A stretch of DNA of 57,875 bases from Tepidimonas fonticaldi (GTDB taxonomy: Bacteria; Pseudomonadota; Gammaproteobacteria; Burkholderiales; Burkholderiaceae_C), in assembly GCF_007556755.1 (NCBI RefSeq), contig NZ_VJOO01000020.1, positions 1 through 57,875 of the forward strand. Reading direction: 5' to 3'. This document shows, one piece after another, positions 3,276 to 57,875 of this stretch (its first letter is position 1; each line of letters begins with the position of its first letter). The notes beneath the pieces are model-generated. The model searched no databases. It was not told the DNA's origin and saw only the letters and a list, made by a program, of their open reading frames with translations. The translations under genes were made by a program, and so were the position numbers.

Positions 3276-4541
3276 ATGACCATCCCGCGCCAACGCCCCG
3301 CACCGCTTTCGTCCGCTCCGGTGCCCGCCGCCCGTGGCGGCATCGGCACTGCCCTGTCGCGCTGGGTCGTGGGCACGTTGGTGGGAGCACAGTTGGGCGG
3401 CATGGCCTGCGTCGCCTCGGCCGCACCGCCCTACCCCGTGACCCCGCAGCAGCGCGGCACCGCCGAGCAGGTGGCCCAGGCGGGCGTGCCCCTGTCGGAG
3501 CTGGCCCCCAATGCACCCGAGCGCTACACCGTGCGGCGCGGCGATACCTTGTGGGGCATTTCGGCGCTGTATCTGCAGCGCCCATGGCGCTGGCCAGAGC
3601 TGTGGGGCATGAACCTGCAGCAGATTCGCAACCCCCACCTGATCTACCCCGGGCAGGTGCTGGTGCTCACGCGCATCGGCGACCGCGCCGTGCTGCAGCT
3701 CGCCGCGGACACGCCCCCCACGGTCAAGCTCTCGCCGCGCGTGCGCGCCGAGCGGCTGCGCGACGAGGGCATTCCGCCGCTGCCCCCGGGGGCGATCGAA
3801 CCCTTCCTGGCCGACGTCGATATCGTCGATGCCGACACCCACGAGCGCGCGCCGCGCATCGTCGCCGGCCCGGAAGCGCGGGTGCTGCTGGCCCGCGGCG
3901 ACCGCGCCTACGCCCGCGGCCAGTATGGCCCGAGTGATGCCCTCACGGGCGACGCGCTGGAGGCGCAGGCGGACCGGCCGCGCGTGCTGTCGATCTACCG
4001 CAATGCCGTCGCGCTGCGCGACCCGGAAACCGGCGAGGTGCTGGGCTACGAAGCCCACGCCGTGGGCCGTGCGGAGCTGGTGCGCAGCGAACGCGCGGGC
4101 GAGGGGCCCGACGGGCAGCCGGCCCTGGTGCCGGCGACCGTCCAGATCGTGCAGGCGCGCGAGGAAATCCGCATCGGCGACCGGCTGCTGCCCCAGTCCG
4201 GGCGCGAGATGCGCTTGTACATCCCCCACGCCCCCGCGGCCCCGATCCGCGGGCAGATCGTCAAGGTGCACGGCGATGCCGTGCGCTACGCGGGACAAAA
4301 CCAGATCATCGTGCTCAACCGCGGGCGCGCCGACGGGCTGGAGGCGGGCCATGTGCTCGCCGTGCTGAAGGACCGCACCCGGCTGACCGACAAGACCGAC
4401 GAGGCGCGACCGGACCTCCTGCTGCCCGGGGAGCGCAACGGGCTGATGATGGTGTTTCGCACCTTCGAACGCGTCTCGTACGCCCTGATCCTGCAGATCA
4501 CCGACGGCGTCAAGAGCGGGGATCGCTTCGTCAACCCCTGA
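3276..4541 (+). CDS. Secreted LysM peptidoglycan-binding protein
   Basis: A 421-residue exported protein. The N-terminus has basic residues, then a hydrophobic segment (about residues 26-46) ending in VASAAP, a signal peptide. A LysM domain lies at about 83-133 ([13 protein letters not shown] to IYPGQVLVL) and anchors proteins to peptidoglycan. The remaining 280 residues are a conserved uncharacterised region seen beside dprA in many Burkholderiales. The start at 3276 follows GGGAGGA at good spacing; an ATG at 3252 lies upstream of that ribosome-binding site. A CACAAT -10-like box sits at 3248-3253. Divergent from def, same strand as dprA. Confidence 0.8.
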
Positions 4542-9061: not shown

Positions 9062-10078
9062 TCAGTCCGGGTGCGCCTGCGCGATCACCGGCTCCGGGCG
9101 CACACGCACCCCCCACAACACCCCGGCCACCAACGCGCCGATGCCCAGCAGCGACAGGGGCGCCGGCCACTCCCCCCGCCACAGGTAGGCGTACAACAGG
9201 GCGGCCAGCGTCTCGAACACGATGAGCTGCCCCGCCAGCGCCGTCGGCAACCGCTGGCTGGCCGCATTCCAGCACAGCGTGCCCAGCCACGACGCCAGCA
9301 GACCAACCGACACCATCAGGCCGACGAACACCGCCGGCCGCGGCCCGAACGGCATGGCGAACGGATCGCCCCGCACCGCGTCCAGCCCCCAGACCAGTGC
9401 GTAGCCGATGGCCGCCAGCGGCAGGGTGGCCAGCCCCTGCGCGGTGGACCAGGCGCGCGGGCTGCGGTCCGGGTGCGCGCGCAGCCAATCGGCGTTGTGC
9501 AGGGGGTACCACGTCCAGCAGGCCACCGCCCCCACGGCCAGCAGCGCGCCCAGCGCGTAGGCACCCACGTCGCGCGCGGGGTCGGCCAGCACGGCCTGCA
9601 GCTCGGTGCGGTTGACCAGCGCAATGCCCAGCGCGATCAGGGCCAGGGCGGGCCACAGACGCCGCCACGGCAGCCGCCCGTCGCGCACCGCGTTGCGGCG
9701 GTTGGCCACGATGGCAATGACCACCGGCAGGGTGCCGATGATGACCGTGGACAAGGGCCCGCCGGTGCGCTGGATGGAGCTGGCCAGCAGCAGGTAGTAC
9801 AGCAGATTGCCCACGAAGGCCAGCTTGAGCGCGTGCCGCCAGTCGGCGCGGCTCAGGCTGCGCAACTCGCGGCGGTCGAACCACGCCAGGGGCAGGCAAA
9901 TCAGCCCGAACGCCAGGTAACGCGCCACCGACTGCAGCGCCGCCGGATACTCGGGCAACATCAGTGGCGCGACGAACACCAGCCCCCACAGGGCCCCGGC
10001 AGCCAGCGCCCACGCGACGCCGCCGCCGATCCCGCCCGCCGTTGCTGCCCCACCGTCTGCACTGCCCGCTGCGGCCAT
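9062..10078 (-). CDS. DMT-superfamily (EamA-type) exporter
   Basis: A 338-residue inner-membrane protein with about ten hydrophobic helices in two EamA-like halves. Recognisable stretches are ALAAGALWGLVFVAPLML near the N-terminus, GNLLYYLLLASSIQRTG and, in the second half, SWLGTLCWNAASQRLP and FETLAALLYAYL. These drug/metabolite transporters usually export amino acids or metabolites; the substrate cannot be predicted. The ATG at 10078 follows GGGAG. It sits between yajC and the indolepyruvate oxidoreductase, both on the same strand, with gaps that allow separate promoters. Confidence 0.8.
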   Translation of the reverse strand: MAAAGSADGGAATAGGIGGGVAWALAAGALWGLVFVAPLMLPEYPAALQSVARYLAFGLICLPLAWFDRRELRSLSRADWRHALKLAFVGNLLYYLLLASSIQRTGGPLSTVIIGTLPVVIAIVANRRNAVRDGRLPWRRLWPALALIALGIALVNRTELQAVLADPARDVGAYALGALLAVGAVACWTWYPLHNADWLRAHPDRSPRAWSTAQGLATLPLAAIGYALVWGLDAVRGDPFAMPFGPRPAVFVGLMVSVGLLASWLGTLCWNAASQRLPTALAGQLIVFETLAALLYAYLWRGEWPAPLSLLGIGALVAGVLWGVRVRPEPVIAQAHPD

Positions 10079-19998: not shown

Positions 19999-20075
<77 letters not shown>

Positions 20076-56450: not shown

Positions 56451-56591
56451 GATCCTCTGACCTCCGATGGCGGCCCGCCGCCGGGGGCGCGGGCCGGGAT
56501 TGTCGAAACGTGCCACTGTAGGCGAAATCCGGGTCCGGATCGACGGCAAGCCGACCGCTTCAGCCGTGACTTTTTGTTCAATAATGCGGGC

Positions 56592-57524
56592 ATGGACCGG
56601 CTCAAGGCGCTGGAAACATTCGTTGCCGTGGCCCAACGCGGCAGCTTGGCCGCGGCCGCGCGCGCCGAAGGGGTGGTGCCGGCCATCGTCGGCCGGCGGC
56701 TGGACGCGCTGGAGGAGTACCTGGGCGTCAAACTGATGGTGCGCACCACGCGCCGCATCACCCTCACGCCGGAGGGCAACGCGTTTCTGGAAGACTGCCA
56801 GCGGCTGCTGGCGGAGCTGGCGCAGGCCGAGGCCAACGTCAGCGCCGGCGGCACCGCGGCGCGGGGCCACCTGCGCATCACCGCCCCGGCCGGCTTTGGG
56901 CGCCAGCACGTCGCCCCGCTGGTGCCCGCCTTTCGCGCCCGCCACCCGGAGGTCACCGTCTCCCTCAATCTGAGCGACCGCGTGGTGGACCTGATCGCCG
57001 AAGGCTACGACTGCGCCGTGCGGGTGGGGGATTTGCCCGACTCGTCCCTGGTGAGCGTGCGGCTGGCCGACAACCGGCGGCTGGTCGTGGCCACGCCCGC
57101 CTACCTGCAGCGCCGCGGCGTGCCGCGCCATCCGCACGACCTGCTGCAACACGACTGCCTGGTGCTGTCATCGGATGCCTCGCAAACGCGCGGCTGGGCG
57201 TTTGCCGTACCCGGCCCGGGCGGGCGCCGGGACCTGATGCATGTGCGCCCACGCGGCCCGCTGGACTGCAGCGACGGCCAGGTGCTGTACGAATGGTGCC
57301 TGGCCGGGCTGGGCCTGGCCTGGCGCAGCACCTGGGAGGTGCAAGCCGACATCGACGCCGGCCGCCTGGTCGCCGTGCTGGACGATTACGCCGCCCCCCC
57401 CAATGGCATCTACGCCGTCTTCCCCACCGCCCGCCACCTGCCGCGGCGCGTGCGGGCCTGGATCGATTTTCTAAAAGACCACTATGGGCGGGCGGAGTTT
57501 TGGGGGGCCAACAAGTCCCTTTGA
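56592..57524 (+). CDS. LysR-family regulator divergent from malate synthase
   Basis: A 310-residue regulator with a winged helix (residues 1-60, [20 protein letters not shown]) and a CrgA-like effector domain ([19 protein letters not shown]). By position it probably controls glcB. The start at 56592 has AATAAT (56580-56585) ending six bases before it. It ends 13 bases before the tracrRNA terminator, so the CRISPR locus abuts it. Confidence 0.9.
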
Positions 57525-57539
57525 TTCCTGCTCCAAATG

Positions 57540-57567
57540 AAAAGCCCAGCAAGCAAGCTTGCTGGGC
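57540..57567 (-). terminator. tracrRNA intrinsic terminator
   Basis: A perfect 11-bp inverted repeat GCCCAGCAAGC with GCTTGCTGGGC around AA (57544-57567), followed on the minus strand by TTTTC. It forms the last hairpin of the tracrRNA. Confidence 0.88.
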
Positions 57568-57617
57568 GGATACAGGCTTTCGCCTTTATTGTAGCAACGG
57601 CTCTCACCCCGGATAGC

Positions 57618-57623
57618 TACAAT
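57618..57623 (+). promoter_or_regulatory. Candidate cas9 -10 box inside the anti-repeat
   Basis: TACAAT on the plus strand, with transcription expected near 57630, then AAGGGAG (57635-57641) seven bases before the cas9 GTG. No good -35 is seen 17 bases upstream. These six bases are also the first six transcribed bases of the tracrRNA on the other strand. Confidence 0.5.
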
Positions 57624-57629
57624 GGCCGC

Positions 57630-57635
57630 ATTATA
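57630..57635 (-). promoter_or_regulatory. tracrRNA -10 box
   Basis: Perfect TATAAT on the minus strand. Six bases separate it from 57623, the first base of the anti-repeat. A weak -35 (TTGTGG, 18-base spacing) lies inside the first codons of cas9. Confidence 0.75.
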
Positions 57636-57648
57636 AGGGAGATTCGTC

Positions 57649-57728
57649 GTGAGCCACAACAAGACACCGGAAAGTCTGGTCTTCGGATTCGACATCGGCA
57701 TCGCCTCGGTCGGCTGGTGCGTGCTATC
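57649..57728 (+). pseudogene. cas9: cas9 (type II-C), 5' fragment cut by an insertion sequence
   Basis: GTG start after AAGGGAG. The first 26 codons read SHNKTPESLVFGFDIG then IASVGWCVL, the RuvC-I motif of type II-C Cas9, with the catalytic Asp at residue 15. After that the sequence changes to a transposon end. Arg-rich bridge helix, REC, HNH and later RuvC motifs are not in the window. They may lie beyond the insertion. As it stands this copy cannot make full-length Cas9. Its lower GC than the flanking genes fits a mobile origin. Confidence 0.85.
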
Positions 57729-57875
57729 TGTCATGTCCCGGATGATTATGGGGTCGCTTTTGGAACAAATCCGATCTTCGCCGATACCAGTCCTTCATGG
57801 CCTGCATGGGCGTGCGGGCATCGAGGGCAGTCTGAGGCAGATGGTGGTTGTAGAGCCAAGCGTAGCGCAAGAGGG
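57724..57875 (-). CDS. Transposase C-terminus (partial, IS481-like)
   Basis: On the minus strand the frame entering from the window edge reads LLRYAWLYNHHLPQTALDA, then RTPMQAMKDWYRRRSDLFQ and KRPHNHPGHDR, then TAG at 57724-57726. This is the end of a DDE transposase: the YNHHxPQxAL and TPMQAMK motifs are common in IS481-type proteins; an IS3-type is possible. The stop codon appears to lie in host cas9 DNA, just outside the element. Confidence 0.75.
   Translation of the reverse strand, partial: LLRYAWLYNHHLPQTALDARTPMQAMKDWYRRRSDLFQKRPHNHPGHDR
57729..57875. mobile_element. Insertion sequence, one end (continues beyond the window)
   Basis: The presumed end begins TGTCATGTCCCGGATGATTA at 57729, with TGT at the tip as in IS481-type elements. 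It interrupts cas9 after codon 26. The other end and any target duplication are outside the window, so family and exact boundary are provisional. Confidence 0.7.

Follow-up and report, generated by a model that had tools for sequence, protein, structure and literature searches.

A complete tracrRNA gene beside a truncated cas9 in Tepidimonas fonticaldi, very probably the remnant of a type II-C CRISPR-Cas locus shared with Tepidimonas aquatica

For the type II-C CRISPR-Cas system of Bordetella pseudohinzii, the accessible text of PMC4624362 describes a putative tracrRNA encoded upstream of and divergently from cas9 with a promoter and a stem-loop terminator, a cas9-cas1-cas2-array gene order, 36-nt repeats, and horizontal acquisition of the locus into a variable site; its cas genes and crRNAs are reported there as expressed. 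The Tepidimonas aquatica and Tepidimonas fonticaldi RNA genes are alike in layout and the other features are found likewise, a likeness drawn by description, although the Bordetella locus is intact and the cas9 of T. fonticaldi is cut. The Neisseria type II-C systems have the plan of anti-repeat, hairpin and terminator in common with the Tepidimonas tracrRNA, and the Neisseria RNA, at about 105 nt, is longer than the 84 nt found here. The Neisseria bergeri locus scores 36.5 bits against the covariance model of the tracrRNA family described below (a length of 140 returned for its tracrRNA by our script was dropped as unreliable); the T. aquatica Cas9 is 42% identical to the N. bergeri Cas9 in the best segment, and its best PDB match is 6kc8, which we take to be the N. 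meningitidis Cas9. A search of the openly licensed literature gave no description of this Tepidimonas tracrRNA/cas9 locus. Our proposal, which we consider highly probable, is that the T. fonticaldi gene supplied the tracrRNA of a Neisseria-type II-C locus, and that this locus, after a recent exchange with a T. aquatica-like genome, was destroyed in T. fonticaldi.

The window, which is the whole 57,875-nt stretch of T. fonticaldi DNA analysed here, carries the tracrRNA gene near its right end on the minus strand (57540-57623), giving 84 nt from the 5' end of the anti-repeat to the fourth T of the terminator. The anti-repeat itself occupies 36 nt (57588-57623, minus strand) and pairs with the T. 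aquatica repeat; it is followed by a predicted hairpin AGGC-GAAA-GCCT of 4 bp with a GAAA loop (57574-57585, minus strand), a GTATCC linker, and an intrinsic terminator (57536-57567, minus strand) with a ten-pair stem (57567-57544), a 4-nt loop and a TTTTCATT tail, the minus strand reading TTTTCATTTG after the stem. A TATAAT -10 box lies six bases before the anti-repeat (57630-57635, minus strand). All four elements that the preliminary description had read from the letters, namely the 36-base anti-repeat, the GAAA hairpin, the intrinsic terminator and the TATAAT box, are thus present on the minus strand. Folded alone, the tracrRNA forms the hairpin and the terminator while the anti-repeat closes on itself; folded with the T. 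aquatica repeat, the anti-repeat gives 8 pairs and then, past an interrupted stretch, 23 more. The predicted energy of this duplex is -55.9 kcal/mol, against a best value of -41.0 and a median of -17.0 kcal/mol for 3000 random 38-nt pieces of the window, so the folding of repeat with anti-repeat that had been suggested as a check came out in favour of the reading. The family covariance model gives the window tracrRNA 87.3 bits (E 8.6e-21), a score to be read with the window itself among the 70 sequences used to build the model; the next-best match in the window scores 15.3 bits. Over the tracrRNA, no Rfam match attains the gathering score of its family, and a relaxed Rfam search of 57400-57875 returned only VrrA (20 bits, cut-off 50) and HDV-F-prausnitzii (13.8 bits, cut-off 44). 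The sole Rfam match above the gathering score in the window is a tRNA gene at 20002-20075 on the minus strand. Judged by its sequence, the tracrRNA gene is real and more than a product of chance.

The repeat predicted from the anti-repeat was essentially right: the T. aquatica repeat, GTTGTAGCTCCCTCTCTCACCCCGGATGGCTACAAT, agrees at 28 of the 29 specified bases, its one odd base permitting a G-U pair, and that of a further relative (G079) agrees at all 29. The exact predicted repeat occurs in 10 of the 67 places at which our script found an array.

A GTDB genome search with an alignment of three Cas9s gave 121 relatives, of which the best 80 were taken (79 distinct loci); with three loci added from further genomes, 82 cas9 places were examined. 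A matching tracrRNA layout was found at 80 of the 82, always on the strand opposite cas9, these 80 tracrRNAs including two duplicate records (L031 = L091 and L033 = L127). The two misses, L106 and L114, have just 78 and 141 bases upstream, and L106 gives a partial match. The alignment holds 70 sequences including that of the window (68 distinct), and among the 27 positions of the anti-repeat core, CCGGGGTGAGAGCCGTTGCTACAATAA, 21 never vary, five hardly do, and the remaining one is either A or G. Cells of the hairpin and terminator are paired in 93.4% of cases, against 80.2% in shuffled alignments and no more than 49.8% after the partners were shifted by one to three columns, and the covariation score is 0.413 against 0.172 in shuffles, with kinship not fully corrected for. 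Pairs kept with both sides changed occur at 10 of the 14 predicted pairs, in 138 cells against 34.2 in shuffles; the count of such pairs, one of five measures, is 10 against a shuffled 7.4 and was reached by 26 of 500 shuffles. Three hairpin pairs and the terminator stem covary across the family. In the 63 of the 82 loci with a usable repeat, duplicates included, own-locus pairing between the repeat and the 5' part of the anti-repeat reaches 0.88 of positions, again with kinship not fully corrected for, and 2000 shuffles of the repeat partners gave a mean of 0.65 and a maximum of 0.73. The window tracrRNA is by these features a predicted member of a widespread, mostly betaproteobacterial family of type II-C tracrRNAs.

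Upstream of the -10 box, a -35-like TTGTGG (57654-57659, minus strand) stands at an 18-nt spacer within the first cas9 codons. It fits just three of the six consensus bases, which is why a strict sigma-70 scan of 57400-57875 found no promoter; the family promoter-scoring script favoured an equally weak GTGGCT at 16 nt. Over the 80 family places the mean upstream promoter-pair score is 8.20, against a mean of 6.06 and a maximum of 6.34 in 100 shuffles, and the best-scoring -10 box matches at least five of six bases in 63 of the 80. A -35 lying across the first cas9 codons is seen by eye in some relatives (L082, G079). A plus-strand TACAAT within the anti-repeat (57617-57622), considered as a -10 box for cas9, was dropped, as its equivalent in G079 is CACAAC. 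With its -10 box and terminator retained, the orphan tracrRNA gene may still be transcribed in T. fonticaldi.

The cas9 reading frame faces the tracrRNA gene on the plus strand (57649-57728) and consists of a GTG start, 26 whole codons and 2 nt. It agrees at every position with the opening 80 nt of the T. aquatica cas9, which encodes a protein of 1122 aa, and the TIGR01865 profile matches it with 18.3 bits over profile positions 2-17; Pfam gave no match for this frame. The claim of a tracrRNA divergent from a type II-C cas9 start is thus borne out, the cas9 here amounting to 26 codons before an insertion sequence. The remainder of the window (57729-57875, minus strand) starts with TGTCATGTCC and encodes a C-terminal transposase fragment, the contig ending inside the element. 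We assign it to a putative IS481-like element from a weak fragment match (17 bits to NF033577 transpos_IS481, cut-off 224, the element being partial); no Pfam family matches the fragment. A second copy of this end, 99% identical, lies at positions 1-151 of another contig (C15), and five more distant copies are 72-75% identical. By eye, the transposase frame overruns the element end (57724-57735), with a stop codon, TAG (57726-57724), that is supplied by the adjoining cas9 DNA; the C15 copy, also by eye, takes a TAA from other flanking DNA.

T. aquatica CLN-1 (NZ_VJNA01000007.1; L031, the same record as L091) has a II-C locus intact by sequence, with the 1122-aa Cas9, Cas1, Cas2 and an array of four repeats spaced 66 nt, whereas the cas9 of T. 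fonticaldi is cut after 26 codons. The two species have identical tracrRNAs, promoter regions and first 80 nt of cas9, and share as neighbour a LysR-family regulator gene, which in the window lies at 56592-57524 on the plus strand (PF03466 and PF00126, queried from 56598). The block from 57352 to 57728 differs from T. aquatica at a single base in 377, and upstream of it (56567-57351) identity is about 84%. On the far side of the locus, the remainder of an aldolase gene is 97% identical to T. aquatica over 203 bases, about 94% over the following 300 bases, and lower beyond. The near-identical block together with the close aldolase remainder points to a recent exchange of the locus between T. 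fonticaldi and a T. aquatica-like genome, plausibly by recombination in the flanks. Elsewhere, 240 bases (L031 11116-11355) are identical between T. aquatica and the T. fonticaldi contig C14 in surroundings of about 90%, a second sign of mosaic exchange. Part of the interior of the T. aquatica aldolase gene (L031, about 9302-9493) is missing from the copy on C14 (L078, about 4390-4450), where the gap is bordered on either side by GCCCGGC.

The tracrRNA covariance model matches two of the 11 genomes of the genus Tepidimonas. In one Tepidimonas genome (G003) the LysR gene adjoins a nitrilase-like gene, with no CRISPR locus and no aldolase gene in between, and in another (G008) a PemK/MazF-like gene occupies the interval after the LysR gene; with T. 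aquatica, these genomes make the interval a variable site in the genus. A plasmid collection gave 34 matching records, and in each of the 20 listed the match falls in the LysR portion of the query.

The T. fonticaldi assembly is a draft of 88 contigs from a genome rated 100% complete. Searched across the assembly, TIGR01865 gave no Cas9 over the cut-off, with 18.1 bits for the stub and 15.2 bits for an HNH-region stretch on contig C23, and a cas1 search of the assembly at E up to 0.001 gave no type II match, the sole Cas1 match being of type I-E. A query made of T. aquatica DNA that starts at cas9 and runs past the aldolase gene gave 42 matches at E up to 1: the first 80 nt of cas9, the anti-repeat (matched by the array), two pieces of the aldolase gene and beyond, and 38 short weak matches (best E 2e-4; 40 of 245 first-look candidates scored). 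From cas9 position 81 on, the T. aquatica cas genes and array thus matched only the anti-repeat and short weak stretches among the 40 of 245 candidates scored, and the T. aquatica cas2, sought with this query alone, had no match. The preliminary description had named the lack of a complementary repeat in the same genome as a refutation of its reading, and for the assembly this is the outcome: a 20-base repeat pattern, allowing up to three mismatches over the whole assembly, has its single match in the anti-repeat itself, and the T. aquatica array as query likewise found the anti-repeat only. Contig C2 (L081, L182) carries a type I-E system, with matches for Cas3, Cse1, Cse2, Cas7, Cas5, Cas1 and Cas2; the one open reading frame tested for Cas6e gave no match. 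Its array has 48 reported repeat copies, spaced 61 nt where shown, in a stretch that may cut the array.

How the remainder of the locus came to be missing is the point at which the leading explanations part. At the far flank, contig C14 ends in an IS5-family transposase gene (338 bits, cut-off 275) that replaces the start of the aldolase gene; C14 and the window contig (C13) are placed side by side solely by synteny with T. aquatica. We infer the loss from absence in an 88-contig draft in which an insertion element stands at a contig end, the usual place for an assembly to break. It is accordingly conceivable, although we think it distinctly less probable than loss, that the locus was interrupted and that the remainder of cas9, cas1, cas2 and the array lie beyond the insertion element, unassembled. 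This differs from the proposal above in the last step only and otherwise overlaps with it; if it were true, Cas9 would still be broken and crRNAs might exist. The contig does end inside the element, and related genomes provide a precedent. The covariance model matches 17 of 299 related genomes, of which 14 have a Cas9 over the cut-off; the three that do not are T. fonticaldi, G138 and G270. G138 was rejected as a second orphan, since its contig simply ends within cas9: the cas9 start lies at the contig end, no insertion sequence is seen there and no other Cas9 exceeds the cut-off, so a missing cas9 can reflect a gap in assembly or binning, and parts of cas9 can go missing at a contig end even where no insertion element stands. 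For G270 the tracrRNA match is weak, at 27.8 bits, and again no Cas9 exceeds the cut-off. In another relative (G113, contig C3, 2291-5959) the cas9 match falls into two separate pieces, and an open frame of 1575 aa is given for each. Three points weigh against simple interruption: a genome rated 100% complete would have to lack about 5.3 kb (L031 3806-9098); a transposase gene also terminates the far flank, inside the aldolase gene; and the T. aquatica query matched no cas genes after position 80 among the candidates scored.

A different suggestion, to which we give little credence, is that the orphan tracrRNA has been kept for another job, either in regulation or in serving an incoming II-C array or Cas9 in trans. 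The whole gene, with its -10 box and terminator, does stand unchanged beside a cut cas9, and a neighbouring species whose locus is intact has exactly the same RNA. However, the adjoining LysR gene end and the cas9 stub have changed just as little (the single difference in 377 bases), so recent exchange alone accounts for the identity of the tracrRNA; that T. fonticaldi has its own type I-E system also speaks against this role. The S. pyogenes tracrRNA has a self-repressing long form, and a counterpart here was considered and dropped, as it needs Cas9. Least probable of all, and very nearly dismissed, is that T. fonticaldi itself has a functional II-C system in which this compact tracrRNA still works. 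The intact RNA features and -10 box and the identity to T. aquatica could be cited in its favour, but searches of the assembly gave neither a Cas9 over the cut-off nor a type II Cas1, nor any repeat complementary to the anti-repeat.

We return to exchange followed by destruction. In an intact locus such as that of T. aquatica, the RNA would be transcribed in the direction away from cas9, its first 36 nt would pair with each repeat of the pre-crRNA, and its short hairpin and terminator stem would hold Cas9; transcription, processing by RNase III and loading of Cas9 are presumed by analogy with known II-C systems. In T. fonticaldi the IS481-like element would have ended the cas9 frame after 26 codons. 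The remaining part of cas9, the II-C cas1 and cas2 and the array did not turn up in the assembly, and the tracrRNA would be left an orphan for which neither a Cas9 nor a matching crRNA was found. The locus would then record a single cycle in which a CRISPR-Cas9 system was gained and lost between close species, exchange that left near-identical flanks being followed by disruption by insertion elements, seen in a genome with a type I-E system.

The T. aquatica system, with its 84-nt tracrRNA and 1122-aa Cas9, is a candidate compact guide scaffold. The earlier guess of a thermophilic host fits, Tepidimonas being a moderately thermophilic genus that grows in the warm. Lengths within the family were counted from the start of the anti-repeat to the end of the T run; of the 80 tracrRNAs, five without a terminator by this rule and four longer than 105 nt were dropped, leaving 71 (69 distinct). 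The 69 span 84-104 nt with a median of 95, the Tepidimonas RNA being the shortest at 84 and four others measuring 85. The preliminary placing among the shorter tracrRNAs therefore stands within the family and falls overall: the Campylobacter jejuni tracrRNA, likewise a short II-C tracrRNA, occurs in two forms of about 74 and 62 nt according to the accessible text of PMC3656092, the 74-nt form being what we take as the longer precursor, and the available part of a survey of 79 Cas9s (PMC7606464) distinguishes one clade with the shortest guides and two hairpins after the duplex. Set beside these, the Tepidimonas tracrRNA is short and no record.

In kind, then, the system is ordinary, and in T. 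fonticaldi it is broken. By description it may be set beside the EHCas9 system, which was recovered from a metagenome and which the accessible text of PMC10281378 presents as experimentally active. For its decay there is a parallel in C. jejuni RM1221, in which, according to the same portion of PMC3656092, cas9 contains a stop and only weak expression of CRISPR and tracrRNA is seen.
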